Assembly (NCBI RefSeq): GCF_003003995.1
Contig: NZ_PVWF01000036.1
Location: 1-43,749 of the forward strand
Source: Pleurocapsa sp. CCALA 161
Lineage (GTDB): Bacteria; Cyanobacteriota; Cyanobacteriia; Cyanobacteriales; Xenococcaceae
Direction of reading: 5' to 3'
DNA length: 43,749 nt
The notes beneath the pieces were generated by a model. It was not told the DNA's origin. It ran no database searches and worked only from the letters and a program-made list of their open reading frames with translations. Positions 35,011 through 43,749 of the stretch are shown here, in pieces (the first letter of the stretch is position 1; every line of letters starts with the position of its first letter). Position numbers and translations under genes: made by a program.

Positions 35011-35205
35011 CTAAACTCGGGCAATATTCCCAGGATAATTGGCTTCTAACTGAGCATTTAATCTACCAAATACCAACGCGGCAGTATCATCAAAAGGCAA
35101 AGATACAAAAAGATTCAGAAATTGCTGCTGTTTTCGGTAAGTGCGGTCGGGATTAAGACTTTTAAACGCACCATAAGCAAGCTCTGACTTGACAATTGAA
35201 CAGGC
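35011..35205 (-). pseudogene. VapC-type PIN toxin fragment
   Basis: The minus strand reads CSIVKSELAYGAFKSLNPDR, then FLNLFVSLPFDDTAALVFGRLNAQLE. This is the middle of a VapC-family PIN domain (the Glu in SELAYGA and the LPFDDTAA..YGRIRAQLE block). The N-terminal Asp motif and the C-terminal catalytic part are missing; the frame ends at a stop just after NIARV. It abuts the TonB receptor fragment near 35200. Inactive relic. Confidence 0.75.
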
Positions 35206-35658
35206 AAAAACTTGAGGAAGCTGGTAATTATAATTTGTATGAACCCAGTATCGATCTTTCAGGCCCATTGACTGAAGATGAAAGTAAATTATATCGCTTC
35301 ATTGCTGCCTATCAAGGTGGAGGGGATTTTAAAGACACAAATACGTTTGAGGAAGATCGCATTATATCCATTGCACCCTCATTTACATTTAGATTTAGCG
35401 ATCGCACTAACCTAAATCTTTACTATGACCTATGGGCTTTATCTTCAAGATCAAATCGCCTTTACCGATAATCTGAAAATGCTCATTGGTGGTCGCTATG
35501 ATTGGTTATCTAATGAAACTGGATCGCTTGATGATGATAGGTCATCTCAAGATGACGCAGCTTTTAGCCCCCGAATTGGCTTGGTCTATCAGCCTAGTAA
35601 AAATGTTTCACTCTACACCAGCTACAGTCAATCCTTGCGTCCGTCGATAGTTAGGAAC
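35196..35658 (+). pseudogene. TonB-dependent siderophore receptor, two remnants
   Basis: Piece 1 (about 35196-35430): NLYEPSIDLSGPLTEDESKLYRFIAAYQ, then RIISIAPSFTFRFSDRTNLNLYYD. Piece 2 (35425-35658, another frame): YGLYLQDQIAFTDNLKMLIGGRYDWLSNET, then SPRIGLVYQPSKNVSLYTSYSQSLRPS. These are early and middle barrel parts of FhuA/FpvA-type ferric-siderophore receptors. The plug with TonB box, several barrel strands between the pieces, and the C-terminal strands are missing. The second piece runs into the binding-protein gene at about 35650-35658. Confidence 0.85.
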
Positions 35659-36472
35659 AGTTTGTATTCCGATTGAACCAAAACGCATCGTCGCATTAGA
35701 TTCTATGCTTCTCGCAGATCCTTTACTTGCTCTTGGTATTCGACCCATTGGAATGGCTGTTCATCACCTTGAGGAAAAAGAAGATTTAGCTGGTTTAACT
35801 TCAGATAAAGCTGAGGGAATTACAAGGGTTGGAGATGTATATTCTCCTTCATTAGAAGGGATTCTCAAGCTCAAGCCAGATTTAATTATAGGAATGTTTT
35901 TTCATGAACAAATTTACAAACAACTATCAGCGATCGCGCCGACAGTTTTAGTAGAAGAGCAAAAATATGACTGGATTAAGAAAAACTTGCGGTATCTTGC
36001 TCGAGTTCTTAATAAAGAAGCAGAAGCGGAGAGAGTGCTTTCACACTATCAAGCTCGGATTGCAAAATTGCAAGACAAATTGAATCGTCAGCCACAAGAA
36101 ATAAAAGTTACCGTACTCGAACACCATAATGGTAGTTTCTTCATTCCTGGCTCTGCGGATGCTCCTCACGAAGTTTTTTCTGACATAAGCTTAATCCATA
36201 ACATTTCACATACTGATACTGAGGAGCGGCAAATTAGTATCGAAATTTTAGATCAATATGATGCTGATATTTTATTTATTATGGATTATGATGGAAAACC
36301 AAAATCTTTACTTAAAAACCCGTTGATAGCTTCGCTAAATGTCGTCAAAAATAACCGAGTGTACTTCGTCGAAACATCTCTATGGCATACTGGTGGAATT
36401 TTGGGACTAAATAGGCTATTGGATAATATTATAGCTAAACGATATTTTGAATATCTCTCAAAAGATAAATAA
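35653..36472 (+). pseudogene. Fe-siderophore binding protein, 5'-truncated
   Basis: The frame is homologous from about 35656 (GTVCIPIEPKRIVALD, the usual start of the mature domain). The first ATG is at 35705 (SMLLADPLLALGI), giving 255 residues. FecB/FhuD-type features: SLEGILKLKPDLIIGMFFHEQIYKQLSAIAPTVLV, and LIASLNVVKNNRVYFVETSLWHTGG near the end. The signal peptide/lipobox and the first residues are absent, because a deletion joined this gene to the receptor remnant. Without export it could not serve the permease encoded 208 bases downstream; it may still be translated. Confidence 0.75.
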
Positions 36473-38687: not shown

Positions 38688-38763
38688 TTAGGGGACTGGG
38701 AGATTGGGAGATAGTAGTATAGCAGTCCTATTTGATTCGTGAAACTACATTGATCGGTTTTTA

Positions 38764-39057
38764 GGTAGTAGGTAGTAGGTAGTAGGTAGTAGGTAGTAGG
38801 TAGTAGGTAGTAGGTAGTAGGTAGTCCTAAAGGACAAAGGCACTTTGCCGCATGTAGCTTCGCAAATAGGTAGTAGGTAGTAGGTAGTAAGTAGTAGGTA
38901 GTAGGTAGTAGGTAGTAGGTAATAGGTAGTAGGTAATAGGTAGTAGGTAGTAGGTAGTAGGTAGTAGGTAGTAGGTAGTAGGTAATAGGTAGTAGGTAGT
39001 AGGTAGTCCTAAAGGACAAAGGCACTTTGCCGCATGTAGCTTCGCAAATAGGTAGTA
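38764..39057. repeat. Large heptamer array (GGTAGTA) with two copies of a 45-nt insert
   Basis: About 29 units of GGTAGTA (a few GGTAATA and AGTAGTA) in three blocks, interrupted at about 38823-38867 and 39005-39049 by the same piece: TCCTAAAGGACAAAGGC, ACTTTGCCGCATGTAGC, TTCGCAAATA. The piece shares the CCTAAAGGA and CTTCGCA words with the 24-mers. It lies between the siderophore ATPase gene and a small EamA gene. Confidence 0.9.
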
Positions 39058-39119: not shown

Positions 39120-39548
39120 ATGAATGATGGTGAGAGTTGGTGGATTTTTGCGGTGTTGTCGGCGTTCTTTGCTGCCCTGACTACCATCTTTGCCAAGGTT
39201 GGCGTGGAGGGAGTTAATTCTAATTTAGCGACGGCAATACGGACGGTGGTAATTTTAGCGATCGCCTGGGGATTAGTCTATGCTGAAGGTACGTTTCAGG
39301 GATTATTTGAATTAAATCGTAAAACACTGCTGTTTTTAGTATTATCGGGAATGGCAACAGGGCTATCTTGGCTGTGCTATTTCAGAGCCTTGCAAATTGG
39401 TCCTGCTTCATTGGTTGCGCCAATTGATAAGTCGAGCTTGGTATTGATTTCGGTGCTTTCGGTGCTGTTTTTAGGAGAGCCATTGACGATTAAAATGATT
39501 ACGGGTACAGGGTTGATTTTGCTAGGAACGCTAGTGTTGATACGATAG
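39120..39548 (+). CDS. Half-size EamA transporter
   Basis: 142 residues with five TM segments and one EamA repeat: AVLSAFFAALTTIFAKVGVEGVNSNLATAIRTVVILAIAW, then FLVLSGMATGLSWLCYFRALQIGPASLVAPIDKSSLVLISVLSVLFLGEPLT. Half-size members exist in the DMT superfamily and act as dimers, so this is not a truncation. Substrate unknown. Nothing in the context (repeats on both sides) suggests a role. Confidence 0.88.
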   Translation: MNDGESWWIFAVLSAFFAALTTIFAKVGVEGVNSNLATAIRTVVILAIAWGLVYAEGTFQGLFELNRKTLLFLVLSGMATGLSWLCYFRALQIGPASLVAPIDKSSLVLISVLSVLFLGEPLTIKMITGTGLILLGTLVLIR

Positions 39549-39585
39549 TTGGTTGAGGGGGTTGATTTTAGAGCGGCAATTGCCT

Positions 39586-39858
39586 TTATTCTTGAGATCC
39601 CCTATTGTCCAGCCGATTTAGTTGAGGTAATTGATAGCCAACTGTACCAATTAAAACCATGGCGATCGCACAAGATACATATAGTAATGCCATCCCCGCA
39701 CCTGCACCGTTACCAAACATAGGTGCAAACAGAGAACTCAGGATAGTTTCTGACTGCATGGCTGGTTCTAAAATGCGATCGCTCAATGGTTCTGCGATTA
39801 AAGTAGCGATCGCACTTGCTAATTCCAAAACCAAAGAAAACGAAGTAGCAAGTAACAA
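39586..39858 (-). pseudogene. MFS transporter, C-terminal fragment
   Basis: About 90 codons on the minus strand: IATLIAEPLSDRILEPAMQ, then FGNGAGAGMALLYVSCAIAMVLIGTVGYQLPQLNRLD. This matches the last two TM segments of larger MFS exporters of the siderophore/macrolide exporter type (PLADR...EPAM and GAGAGMAL blocks). The upstream ~300 codons are gone; the 5' side ends in an AAGTAAC heptamer array. Given the siderophore locus nearby, it could be a lost siderophore exporter (inference). Confidence 0.7.
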
Positions 39859-39876
39859 GTAACAAGTAACAAGTAA
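39848..39876. repeat. Heptamer array (AAGTAAC)
   Basis: Four units of AAGTAAC/AAGTAGC at the broken end of the MFS fragment. Same unit as at 19132-19161. Confidence 0.75.
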
Positions 39877-40060
39877 AATTCACCATCATCATTAATACAA
39901 AGTAACCATAGGGAAACTAATTAAAATGACTATAATCTTGAAGGAAGCCAAGCGAATACTCAACGTCTTACTAATTTAATTCTACTTATAGCGATCGCTT
40001 ATACCGCAAGTTGTTTGACAGGATTAAAGATTAGAAATACTGGTTATCAAGAGCGGGCGT

Positions 40061-40083
40061 AAATCAGATTTTAAATCTGATTT
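40061..40083. repeat. AT-rich palindrome
   Basis: Arms AAATCAGATTT and AAATCTGATTT separated by one base; could form a hairpin or bind a dimeric regulator. Confidence 0.6.
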
Positions 40084-40146
40084 TAACGCAGCTCGCGCAT
40101 TCCGCGTATATTAATCGTCTAAAAATAGAAGGAAAAAATAGGCCAA

Positions 40147-40262
40147 GACATATGCGAAGCGGGACGCGATATGCGGAGCGGTGACGGGAGCGAAGCGAGC
40201 TAATCCTTTAGGAATCCTTTAGGACGTAAGGAGCTAATCCTTATGCGAAGCGGCTTGCACTC
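40147..40262. repeat. Cluster of dispersed-repeat fragments
   Basis: Repeated words ATATGCGAAGCGG, ATATGCGGAGCGG, GAGCGAAGCGAGC, AATCCTTTAGGA (twice) and TTATGCGAAGCGG: several partial type A 24-mers in both orientations packed in 120 bases. Confidence 0.75.
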
Positions 40263-40387
40263 TTGTCCTTAAGCCAATGAGGATATCGCATTGAGTGTAT
40301 CTATATCCTTAGAATACCTGAGTTTTTCCCCTGGTATTGATCGATTACGTGTTGCAAGATAAAAGTCCAGTGTCAATAGGTTTTAGG

Positions 40388-41962
40388 ATGAGATTTGACT
40401 TTCCCAAGAAAAAAACATCTAATTGGCAACCAGAAAATCCAGAATTTTGGCAAACACGAGGAGCGAAAATAGCAAATCGAAATCTTTGGTCTTCAATTCC
40501 CTGTTTGTCCTGCGCCTTTGCTATTTGGCTTTATTGGAGTGTTATCACAGTTGAAATGAAGAACTTAGGTTTTCCATTTGATGACAATCAATTGTTTACC
40601 TTAAGTGCAGTGGCAGGACTGACTGGAGCAACTTTACGCATCCCCAATTCATTCTTAATCGCCATTTCTGGAGGAAGAAATGTAATCTCTTTAACTACAG
40701 CTTTACTAATTATACCTTCATTGGGAACAGGAATTGCCTTACAAAATCCCGATACGACCTATAGCGTTTTTGTGGTTTTAGCCTATTTATCTGGTATTGG
40801 AGGGGGAAATTTTGCCTCATCTATGTCTAACATCAGTTTCTTTTTCCCTAAGAAAAATCAAGGTATAGCTTTGGGTTTAAACGCTGGCTTGGGAAATGTG
40901 GGTGTTAGTGTAATGCAGGTTTTGTTACCCTTCATCATAACTTTTTCATTTGGCTCTTTTAGTGGTCAGGGAATGCCTTTACCCGCAAATGTGGGAGATA
41001 AAGCTGCTGGAACTTTAATTTGGCTACAAAATTGCGGACTAGTTTGGCTACCAATTTTAGTTATTTTGGTAATTAATGCTTGGGTTAATATGAATAATTT
41101 GCCCACTGCAAGTCCTGATGTGGGTTCAACCTCAAAAGATACTCTAACAGCTTTTTTTAAGTCTTTAGTCCTGATTTGCTGCGCTTTTTCAACTTCTGCA
41201 ATTGGTTTATATCTGCTGATTAAATTAGAGATTAATATGTGGATTGTTTTACCCGTAACTATTGCTTTAACTGTCGTAATTATGGACATAATGCAAGCAC
41301 CATTTAATATTTCTCTTACTCCCCAATATCAAATTTTCAAGAATAAACACAACTGGATTATGACCTGGTTATATACCATGACTTTTGGTTCATTTATTGG
41401 TTATTCGGCTGCTTTTCCTTTGTTAGTTAAAATTATCTTTGGTGAATTACCTGATGGCTCGGTAAATCCCAATGCCATTAATCCTTTTGCTTACGCCTGG
41501 TTAGGCCCTTTAGTGGGTTCTTTAATTCGTCCAGTGGGTGGTTGGTTATCAGATAAACTTGGTGGTGCTAATGTGACTCATTGGGTCACTATTGTGATGA
41601 TTGGTTCGGTTTTAGGAGTTGCTTATTATGTTAAACAAGCTACTGTTTCTCTAACTCCTGAAATCTATTTCATTCCCTTTCTGATTCTGTTCCTAATTCT
41701 TTTCATTACCAGTGGGATTGGTAATGGTTCGACTTTTCAGATGATTCCTATTATTTTTGAACCAGATCGAGCAGGACCAGTTTTGGGTTGGACTTCAGCC
41801 GTTGCTGGTTATGGTGCTTTTATTATTCCTCAAACTTTTGGCGATCGCCTTAAAGCTGGTCATCCTGAATATGCACTCTATGGCTTTGCCCTATATTACT
41901 TTAGTTGTTTAATCATTAATTGGTGGTTTTATGCCAGGAAAAATGCAGAGACTCCTTGTTAA
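40388..41962 (+). CDS. narK: NarK-type nitrate/nitrite MFS transporter
   Basis: 525 residues from the ATG at 40388, which has AGG just upstream; a longer frame from a TTG at 40337 is less likely. N terminus NWQPENPEFWQTRGAKIANRNLWSSIPCL is the hallmark of the E. coli NarK/NarU branch. Substrate-site arginines appear in LRIPNSF (TM2) and LIRPVGGWLSDKLGG (TM8). The nitrate signature GGNFASSMSNISFFFPKKNQGIALGLNAGLGNVGVSVMQ is complete. About 12 TM segments, plus extra residues in the central region (~240-300) compared with the 463-residue E. coli protein. Cyanobacteria mostly use NrtABCD or NrtP for nitrate, so a NarK-branch nitrate/nitrite exchanger is notable. It leads a likely operon with the GAF (36-base gap) and nos genes. 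Confidence 0.92.
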   Translation: MRFDFPKKKTSNWQPENPEFWQTRGAKIANRNLWSSIPCLSCAFAIWLYWSVITVEMKNLGFPFDDNQLFTLSAVAGLTGATLRIPNSFLIAISGGRNVISLTTALLIIPSLGTGIALQNPDTTYSVFVVLAYLSGIGGGNFASSMSNISFFFPKKNQGIALGLNAGLGNVGVSVMQVLLPFIITFSFGSFSGQGMPLPANVGDKAAGTLIWLQNCGLVWLPILVILVINAWVNMNNLPTASPDVGSTSKDTLTAFFKSLVLICCAFSTSAIGLYLLIKLEINMWIVLPVTIALTVVIMDIMQAPFNISLTPQYQIFKNKHNWIMTWLYTMTFGSFIGYSAAFPLLVKIIFGELPDGSVNPNAINPFAYAWLGPLVGSLIRPVGGWLSDKLGGANVTHWVTIVMIGSVLGVAYYVKQATVSLTPEIYFIPFLILFLILFITSGIGNGSTFQMIPIIFEPDRAGPVLGWTSAVAGYGAFIIPQTFGDRLKAGHPEYALYGFALYYFSCLIINWWFYARKNAETPC

Positions 41963-41998
41963 TTTAGATCGATTACATCAATTAGAAGAAGTTTAGTT

Positions 41999-42493
41999 AT
42001 GAAAAATTTAATTAAAAATAAATCTTCAGACAATTTAAAATTAATTCTTAATAAAATCTGCCAATTGACCAACTTTCCTTATGGTGAAATTTGGTTTCCT
42101 AATGACGAAAACAACTTTATAGAACTGAGTTCTAATTACTATATTGCAAACGATATTCATCAATATGACCTAGAGCTTTTCTATGAATGTAGCCAAGAAT
42201 TTATTATGTCAAAAGGTGAAGGATTGCCTGGACGAGTTTTCTTAAATCAGAAACCAGAATGGATGCTAGATGTCTCCTCGGCTGAATCTGAAGATTCTTT
42301 TCTAAGAAATACAATTGCTGGAGTTTGTGGAGTTAAAACAGGCTTTGCTGTTCCTGTAAAGATAGAAAAAGAAGTTTTGATGATTATGGTTTTTTTCACC
42401 TGCGAGCTACGCTCTTATTCTGCTGAATGTTTGGCATTAGCAGATTTAGTAATAAAACATTCAACTTCAAAAGTCTACTTTGATAATAATTAA
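41999..42493 (+). CDS. Stand-alone GAF-domain protein
   Basis: 164 residues, essentially one GAF domain: CQLTNFPYGEIWFPNDENNFIELSS, then SQEFIMSKGEGLPGRVFLNQKPEWMLDVSSAESEDSFLRNTIAGVCGVKTGFAVPVKIEKEVLMIMVFFTCE. This subtype (GEGLPGRV, then W..DVS, then FLR, then GVK.GFAVP) is common in cyanobacterial sensor proteins, where it is joined to kinase or cyclase domains; here it has no output domain. No obvious bilin-binding Cys. It sits between narK and nos on the same strand, so it may bind a small ligand (NO, nitrate or another) and modulate a partner. This is inference. Confidence 0.8.
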   Translation: MKNLIKNKSSDNLKLILNKICQLTNFPYGEIWFPNDENNFIELSSNYYIANDIHQYDLELFYECSQEFIMSKGEGLPGRVFLNQKPEWMLDVSSAESEDSFLRNTIAGVCGVKTGFAVPVKIEKEVLMIMVFFTCELRSYSAECLALADLVIKHSTSKVYFDNN

Positions 42494-42574
42494 AGTTTTT
42501 GCTCAGAAAAGATAATTCAAAGCACCTTCTTTCGTCAAAAACTGGCATCAAAGTATTGTGTATCTTTCTTTAAA

Positions 42575-43720
42575 ATGAAACCTCAAAACATTAATTTACA
42601 AGAAGTAACTGATTATTTAACCCTTTTTGCTAGGGAACAGAATCTTTCGGCTGAGGATTTGAAGCAACGTCTAGAGAGGATTTACGTTGAATGTGAGCAA
42701 ACAGGTATATATTGGCAGACTACTACAGAACTAAACTATGGTGCTAAAGTCGCATGGCGTAATAGTGTTAATTGTATAGGGCGGATAAGTTGGCAAAGTT
42801 TAACTGTGCGCGATCTACGACATCTAACTACTGCTGTAGATATTTTTGCTGCCCTGGTCGAACATATTGAAGTGGCTACTAATCGGGGTAAGATTCGTCC
42901 AACAATCAGCATTTTTGCCCCTCAAACAGCAGAAGAGGGAATTCGCATCTGGAATTCTCAGTTAATTCGTTATGCTGGATATCGCCAGCCTGATGGTAGA
43001 GTAATTGGAGATCCAGACCGAGTAGAACTTACTAAAATCTGTCAAAGTATGGGCTGGAAAGGCGCAGGTACGTCCTTTGACATTTTACCTGTGATTATTA
43101 AAATGCCTAATCAACCTCCCGAAATGTTCGATCTTCCCAAAGAAATAATAATGGAAGTACCCATAACTCATCCCAATTATCCTTGGTTGGCAGATTTGGG
43201 GTTAAAGTGGCACGCACTACCCGTAGCTTCTGACTGGCGACTGGAAATTGGGGGGATTTCTTATCCTGCCGCCCCTTTCAATGGTTGGTATATGAGTGCA
43301 GAAATTGGCGCTCGCAACTTTGGTGATGCTCATCGTTACAACATGCTTCCGATTGTGGCAAAAAAAATGGGCTTAAATACTAGTTCTAAACTTTCTCTTT
43401 GGAAAGATCGTGCCTTGGTAGAGCTGAATGTAGCCGTCTTACATTCTTTTGCCGAATGTGGTGTAAAAATTGTAGACCACCATACAGCTTCAAAACAGTT
43501 CATGCAGCATTGGAAACAAGAAGCAGCAGCTAATCGGATGGTTCCAGCAGATTGGGGGATGACCATACCTCCTATTTCTCCTTCTACGACTGAAGTGTTT
43601 CATCAACCAATGGAAAATGTCTGTTTAAAACCGAATTTATTTTTTCAGTCTGCTGCTTGGCACAGGGAAAACGACGTTGTTCAAACGAGGGTTACAGTTG
43701 GAGGAAAAATCACTTGTTAA
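42575..43720 (+). CDS. nos: Nitric oxide synthase, oxygenase domain (bacterial type)
   Basis: 381 residues. Makes NO and citrulline from arginine using haem and a pterin cofactor, with electrons from an external flavoprotein. Haem thiolate: Cys67 in WRNSVNCIGRISW (B. subtilis NOS also has it at 67). Substrate Glu243: FNGWYMSAEIGARNFGD. Pterin/dimer region: VELNVAVLHSFAECGVKIVDHHTASKQFMQHW, then VPADWGMTIPPISPSTTEVFHQPM. All core blocks are present, so it is probably active. There is no N-terminal zinc hook, calmodulin site or reductase domain, so the length fits the oxygenase-only bacterial class rather than the multi-domain cyanobacterial NOS with reductase and globin. Lies 81 bases after the GAF gene. 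Confidence 0.95.
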   Translation: MKPQNINLQEVTDYLTLFAREQNLSAEDLKQRLERIYVECEQTGIYWQTTTELNYGAKVAWRNSVNCIGRISWQSLTVRDLRHLTTAVDIFAALVEHIEVATNRGKIRPTISIFAPQTAEEGIRIWNSQLIRYAGYRQPDGRVIGDPDRVELTKICQSMGWKGAGTSFDILPVIIKMPNQPPEMFDLPKEIIMEVPITHPNYPWLADLGLKWHALPVASDWRLEIGGISYPAAPFNGWYMSAEIGARNFGDAHRYNMLPIVAKKMGLNTSSKLSLWKDRALVELNVAVLHSFAECGVKIVDHHTASKQFMQHWKQEAAANRMVPADWGMTIPPISPSTTEVFHQPMENVCLKPNLFFQSAAWHRENDVVQTRVTVGGKITC

Positions 43721-43749
43721 ATAGTACATATGTTTTAAATTCCCTACGA

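Follow-up and report, generated by a model that had tools for sequence, protein, structure and literature searches.

A nitrate transporter, a stand-alone GAF protein and an oxygenase-type NO synthase encoded in a row in Pleurocapsa: a possible nitrate-linked unit

The role of nitric oxide (NO) synthase (NOS) in cyanobacteria is poorly understood. The best-known such enzyme, that of Synechococcus PCC 7335 (SyNOS; globin-NOS-reductase), makes NO and nitrate from arginine, nitrate chiefly via its globin (PMC6104048, PMC7554344 and PMC12922734), and is reported to move nitrogen from arginine to nitrate (PMC6104048). Oxygenase-only NOS are known from bacteria and include a cyanobacterial cluster I (PMC6104048). 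For nitrate transport, the annotated function of E. coli NarK is nitrate:nitrite antiport. Staphylococcal NreA, like the GAF protein treated below, is encoded near a nitrate transporter. It is a single GAF protein that binds nitrate and regulates NreBC (PMC8199190). Here we describe, near the end of a 43,749-nucleotide stretch of Pleurocapsa sp. CCALA 161 (NZ_PVWF01000036.1; the whole stretch is called the window), genes for a NarK transporter, a stand-alone GAF protein and an oxygenase-type NOS that follow one another on one strand and may form a nitrate-linked unit; comparable pairings of nitrate transporter and NOS genes recur in other cyanobacteria.

The NarK-GAF-NOS locus

The window is the entire contig G000:C133 of a 249-contig genome (G, C and L numbers denote genomes, contigs and loci). 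Its relevant features are:

40388-41962, + strand: narK, 524 aa; nitrate/nitrite transporter of the major facilitator superfamily (MFS), NarK2/E. coli NarK branch (open reading frame [ORF], Pfam, tree)
41999-42493, + strand: stand-alone GAF protein, 164 aa; family hallmark Cys64 (CSxxF) (ORF, Pfam, AlphaFold2)
42575-43720, + strand: nos reading frame, 381 codons (ORF, Pfam)
42575-43672, + strand: native part of nos, NO synthase oxygenase residues 1-366, with Cys67, Glu243 and an unusual Ala gate
43673-43720, + strand: last 15 codons and stop of nos, from a repeated element (identical contig ends)
43673-43749, no strand: end of a multi-copy element in which the contig stops (77 identical bases elsewhere)

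The original prediction of three same-strand genes with gaps of 36 bases (narK-GAF) and 81 bases (GAF-nos) was confirmed in coordinates and domains (Pfam E-values: MFS_1 4.4e-12, GAF_2 6.3e-8 and NO_synthase 2.8e-159), with an alternative in-frame TTG start for narK possible at 40337. It had allowed that terminators or promoters might divide the trio; neither gap holds a terminator-like site (two were found in 39500-43749, both within narK), promoter-like sites were at chance level (11 vs. 11.5 expected), and an RNA element search of 39500-43749 returned none at gathering scores. The contig carries 45 GCGATCGC sites against 0.28 expected and therefore looks cyanobacterial, making contamination unlikely.

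Residues 8-362 of the NOS match positions 6-361 of the 362 in the NO_synthase model (530 bits), haem Cys67 and substrate Glu243 are both present, and the best PDB match is 2flq (2e-128); NO production from arginine is predicted from this complete core. The stretch shared with the repeated element starts at 43673, the first base of codon 367. Because the last 15 codons and the stop are element sequence, the gene can be called intact in its catalytic core only. The Pfam match lies wholly before the element, with four native residues between, and three relatives end naturally approximately 5, 11 and 26 residues past the match. A missing reductase had also been presented as distinctive: there is indeed no globin or diflavin reductase domain in the frame, whose 3' side is cut by the element at codon 367, but oxygenase-only cyanobacterial NOS had already been described (PMC6104048). 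In the same genome, four other contig ends (those of C168, C117 and C67 and the right one of C234) are identical to the terminal 77 bases (43673-43749), the left end of C234 repeats the first 76, and C18 has an internal copy that has diverged (83%). The contig therefore ends within an element present in several copies, probably an insertion sequence; three ORFs beside the C18 copy matched no Pfam family at 0.01.

In a tree of 57 NOS domains (rows thinned beforehand, keeping 23 of 82 named-record rows and removing duplicates L101, L102 and L180), the window NOS forms one group with those of G376, G497 and G506 (99/93), with G410 next (92/89); all five genomes, G000 included, are cyanobacteria. 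Its domain content is that of oxygenase-only bacterial NOS, including cluster I of PMC6104048, from which it is set apart by its own cyanobacterial clade and perhaps by the upstream nitrate transporter. Like SyNOS, for which an arginine-to-nitrate role has been proposed (PMC6104048), it is a cyanobacterial NOS; unlike SyNOS, it belongs to a separate clade, has neither globin nor reductase in its frame, and is linked to nitrate through neighboring genes. The two also differ at the residue that gates NO release, which is Val in eNOS and Ile in SyNOS (PMC6104048). Across 119 aligned rows the window NOS has Ala, unique save for its own duplicate; three clade relatives have Val, and SyNOS-type enzymes and most bacterial rows have Ile. 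The adjoining residue is altered as well (PVA in the window NOS, PAV in its kin). A smaller gate residue should let NO leave faster.

Nitrate transporters upstream of NO synthase genes

A search with PF02898 found NOS over the cut-off in 13 of 386 genomes of a phylum sample and 42 of 388 genomes of an order sample (fragments included; the samples overlap). Judged by frame length, the order sample holds eight intact oxygenase-only NOS loci in seven genomes (G000, G376, G497 with two, G506, G410, G598 and G619:C126; fragments in G131, G074, G155 and others were excluded from locus counts). In five of the eight, a nitrate MFS gene precedes NOS on the same strand, either directly or separated from it by nothing but the GAF gene: NarK-GAF-NOS in G000, NrtP-GAF-NOS in G376, and NrtP-NOS in both copies of G497 and in G506. 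The name NrtP is given by resemblance; the G376 transporter passes the NarK family cut-off (347.7 bits) and groups with the two other transporters of the window genome. The transporters of G376, G497 and G506 thus hold the same place before NOS as the window NarK, which lies on a deeply separate branch of the family. The transporter-GAF-NOS order has been arrived at with two transporters and two GAF subgroups. We found no description of this linkage, or of the three-gene unit, in the open-licence PubMed Central literature, judged mainly by titles and the starts of abstracts, in agreement with the original prediction that the unit was undescribed.

The neighborhoods of 38 further NOS loci, 35 of them multidomain and the rest those of G410, G598 and G619:C126 (approximately 10 kb each side at most, some cut by contig ends), contained no match to NarK, NrtP, narB, nirA or cynS at 1e-10; they did contain one NrtB-like permease behind NOS (G352, L141) and one GAF (G468, L264). 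Outside this set, a GAF gene adjoins the reductase-NOS of G619 (L183), a locus cut by a contig end in which no NarK or NrtP was found. Three NOS architectures have a GAF gene next to them: oxygenase-only in G000 and G376, the type with an N-terminal reductase in G619, and globin-NOS-reductase in G468.

Assignment of the window transporter to the E. coli NarK branch was borne out. The only solved structures matched at 0.001 were NarK (1.8e-97) and nitrite extrusion proteins 1 and 2, and in a 27-row tree (two rows partial or over-long; long-branch warning from the program) it falls with E. coli NarK and proteobacterial NarK2 in a 14-row branch (100/100), far from NrtP. Within this branch it belongs to a six-row subgroup (97/99) with G353, G240 and G050, from other classes of the same phylum, and plasmid genes of Shewanella and Variovorax. 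The protein misses the NCBIfam TIGR00886 cut-off (293.3 vs. 311.7 bits), though the tree puts it within the family. Six substrate-site residues of E. coli NarK (R89, F147, N175, Y263, F267 and R305) are all conserved in the alignment. The window protein shares branch and site residues with E. coli NarK/NarU and NarK2 and differs from them in a long central insert, missing from E. coli NarK, and in belonging to a genome without a narG match. The branch had been called unusual for cyanobacteria, and it is rare: at 1e-30 it was found in five of the 386 phylum-sample genomes (the sample to which this count is confined), namely the window genome and four outside its class, one of these matches being only approximately 40% identical and in two pieces. 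Three further cyanobacteria (G575, G589 and G595) with this NarK were met beside GAF genes. Of the two further transporters of the window genome, both NrtP-type, one precedes a narB-like gene (by eye) and the other a CLC gene; the genome also carries nirA. A search of it for narG gave no match, so that narG-based nitrate respiration is no explanation for this NarK, and none of its globin-type ORFs reaches the flavohaemoglobin cut-off.

These trees bear on the suggestion that the trio arrived as one set by transfer, with NOS and NarK both nesting among heterotrophs. NarK does group with proteobacterial and other-class rows, but NOS lies among cyanobacteria. Since the NOS clade is cyanobacterial (99/93), its other transporter-linked members have NrtP-type genes, and NarK-GAF pairs occur without NOS in G575, G589 and G595, a single heterotroph import does not account for the locus; a NarK-GAF pair appears instead to have met a cyanobacterial NOS.

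Several other NOS arrangements were seen. A second cyanobacterial multidomain type has EF-hands, a BFD-type iron-sulfur domain and an FNR-like reductase before the NOS domain (L135 5096-8761 and L136 3897-7541, with the full set in whole-protein scans; L183 and L185-L191 by tree), the reverse of the SyNOS order and resembling a Sorangium enzyme named in PMC6104048. L134 (7357-10623, G018) encodes a fusion in which cyclic-nucleotide-binding domains, a BFD iron-sulfur domain and a reductase precede NOS. Behind a globin-NOS-reductase-type gene of G408 (L287 2712-9557) stands a LysR gene similar, by eye, to that of the L132 nitrate cluster, and the gene after it is similar as well, a further possible nitrogen link. 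Oxygenase-only NOS genes at L152 14956-16125, carried with DevABC-type export genes by a conjugative Nostoc sp. C052 plasmid, and at L004 1867-3036, in a Nostoc metagenome-assembled genome, lie in a biosynthesis-like cluster (SDR, desaturase, aminotransferase and acyltransferase). L137 (G131) is a NOS remnant whose match contains stops, and L139 8805-9302 (G074) is a 165-aa NOS piece beside a reductase frame with an LCIB carbonic-anhydrase domain.

The stand-alone GAF family and its neighbors

A six-member profile run against the 388 order genomes identified at least 27 stand-alone GAF loci in 26 genomes (frames ≤204 aa at ≥183 bits; weaker stand-alone frames left out), which outscore all but one multidomain match among the matches listed. 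With G185 from a separate search, the set comprises 28 loci. Cys64 is present in 28/28 of these proteins and in 1/24 multidomain rows; no His occurs in the invariant or nearly invariant columns. The family lies beside NarK, NrtP, nirA, CLC or NOS genes at 18 of 28 loci which, with the five of eight NOS loci above, bears out the predicted recurring link of nitrate transport, GAF and NOS. The first upstream neighbor on the same strand is NarK at four loci (G000, G575, G589 and G595), NrtP at one (G376), nirA at four (G308, G553, G549 and G522), CLC at seven (G538, G530, G601, G609, G555, G597 and G446; five identified by Pfam scan, G609 and G555 by likeness) and NOS at two (G619 and G468). The CLC gene stands behind nirA in G538 and behind NrtP in G530, lies 887 bases away in G597, and in G446 is a fragment truncated at the contig end; there an NrtA-like gene follows the GAF gene. 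Seven loci have no such neighbors (G497, G185, G506, G541, G634, G417 and G661; in G497, NrtP-NOS lies approximately 7.4 kb from the GAF gene), and the remaining three adjoin contig ends (G548, one of the G595 copies, and G641). By eye the 28 loci represent approximately eight contexts, so the 18 are not independent cases.

NarK-GAF pairs in G575, G589 and G595 are 82-86% (NarK) and 56-65% (GAF) identical to those of the window, and the window GAF groups with these three (100/99), apart from the G376 GAF. Stand-alone GAF and NOS co-occur in nine of the 388 genomes (42 with NOS including fragments, 26 with GAF; hypergeometric P = 0.0007, uncorrected for kinship). At L255, L256, L257, L261 and L265, all from one cyanobacterial family, GAF lies between a CLC gene (cut off in L265) and ndhA-I-G-E-like ORFs (by eye). 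A search of the seven CLC proteins of interest for the proline motif of plant CLCa, as a sign of nitrate selectivity, found no such motif, so this test does not apply to them. The proline rule for nitrate selectivity of CLC is given in PMC13125280.

AlphaFold2 models the window protein as a confident single GAF domain (mean predicted local distance difference test score 91.9). Small, soluble, linked to nitrate transport and with a matching fold, it resembles NreA; unlike NreA, it has no adjoining sensor kinase gene within the window, and the sequence likeness is weak. Foldseek placed the NreA-based sensor NitrOFF1 13th and NreA 22nd and lower (NitrOFF is built on NreA; PMC13125280). A plain NreA orthologue was rejected on the NreA scores given below. 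Of the 28 family members, 19 match Pfam's plant NLP GAF domain model at 0.001, and all 28 match the bHLH-MYC model; NLP7 is reported to require its GAF domain for the nitrate response (PMC9310391). A sensing role for the window GAF is inferred, and its reading as a nitrate receptor rests mainly on neighboring genes.

Weighing a nitrate-linked unit

Gene order, the complete core with its site residues, and the recurring transporter-NOS and GAF-nitrate gene neighborhoods are directly observed. With a probability of about one half, we read the trio as a nitrate-linked NO synthase unit with a putative soluble nitrogen-oxide receptor. NOS would oxidize arginine to citrulline and NO, drawing electrons from general cellular reductases as known oxygenase-only bacterial NOS do; NO could become nitrite or nitrate via globins or autoxidation; and NarK, judging from its branch and conserved site, would exchange nitrate and nitrite over the membrane. 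The GAF protein might serve, as NreA does, as a soluble receptor of nitrate or a related nitrogen oxide and, after the staphylococcal model, tune the transporter, NOS or both through protein contact. A broader proposal is offered tentatively: that stand-alone CSxxF GAFs are cyanobacterial soluble nitrate (or nitrogen-oxide) receptors pairing with any mover or maker of nitrogen oxides, be it NarK, NrtP, CLC, nitrite reductase or one of three NOS types. This would place this NOS clade in nitrate metabolism, as part of a regulated unit that combines nitrate transport with sensing and NO production. The trio ties a poorly understood NOS to nitrate use in a form testable on three genes, the linkage with two far-apart transporter branches makes the arginine-nitrogen-to-nitrate idea testable, and the GAF family, present also in nitrate assimilation clusters, would be a candidate bacterial counterpart of plant NLP nitrate sensing.

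A number of observations weigh against the nitrate-linked unit. The predicted conservation of gene order holds for the looser transporter-NOS pattern, but the exact narK-GAF-nos trio was found in the window genome alone: in G478 and G558, of the same genus, the NOS is of another, multidomain type and neither narK nor GAF occurs in the stretches examined, and ten other same-genus genomes in the order sample had no NOS match. Most NOS loci are without NarK/NrtP or GAF, oxygenase-only NOS without an adjacent transporter occurs in G410, G598, G619:C126 and the Nostoc records L004 and L152 (from other collections, judged by ORF list and annotation), and loci of one NOS clade are not independent counts. 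Conversely, five genomes have nirA-GAF or nirA-CLC-GAF without NOS, and G575, G589 and G595 are absent from the NOS matches of the order sample. No NtcA site (GTAN8TAC) precedes narK (nine in the window vs. 7.2 expected). For the GAF, the top Foldseek PDB matches were plant EGL3/MYC3 domains, above NreA, and with 338 matches at 0.001 the fold is generic; the profile E-value to NreA was 1.3, worse than to NifA-like GAFs (0.2), the NCBIfam NreA model NF038250 gave 12.9 bits against a cut-off of 175, and just 4/28 members reached E 1 with the NreA model (best 0.024), fewer than with each of three other models. The plant NLP model also matches multidomain cyanobacterial GAFs.

Ala or Val in place of Ile at the gate argues that NO, not nitrate, exits the enzyme, and suits a unit for handling NO, in which the GAF senses NO via Cys64 (by nitrosation or a metal) or by a cofactor that it binds, the transporter releases NO-derived nitrite or nitrate, and the purpose is NO signalling or detoxification, not nitrogen supply. 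Near-exclusive conservation of Cys64 in the stand-alone GAFs, the antiporter annotation of E. coli NarK and the missing narG match are consistent with this, but in genomes with no NOS match the GAF family accompanies nirA, NrtP and CLC, a pattern more in keeping with nitrate than with NO, and the family's conserved columns lack His; we regard such a role as unlikely. It is rather unlikely that NarK-GAF is a genuine nitrate pair behind which NOS lies by chance. That would agree with the NOS-free pairs, the single occurrence of the trio, the repeated element at the end of nos, and the transposase-like ORFs (by eye) between NrtP-NOS and GAF in G497; however, the sister NOS genes of three other genomes follow another nitrate transporter, in one case with a different GAF intervening, and two more NOS architectures have GAF next to them. 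The element cutting the 3' end may also mean that the gene is decaying, its function ended by the insertion and the trio a remnant, as the element-derived last codons and the broken NOS genes elsewhere (G131) would allow. With the catalytic core complete and open, narK and the GAF gene complete, and relatives ending so soon after the Pfam match, decay appears improbable.

Elsewhere in the window, a tandem array of a 7-base unit in 35 copies (38762-39007) lies between iron-transport genes and an EamA gene, with shorter 7-base arrays at other places. TonB-receptor-like pieces (by eye; 35011-36472) ahead of a siderophore-binding-protein-like ORF and transport genes look broken.

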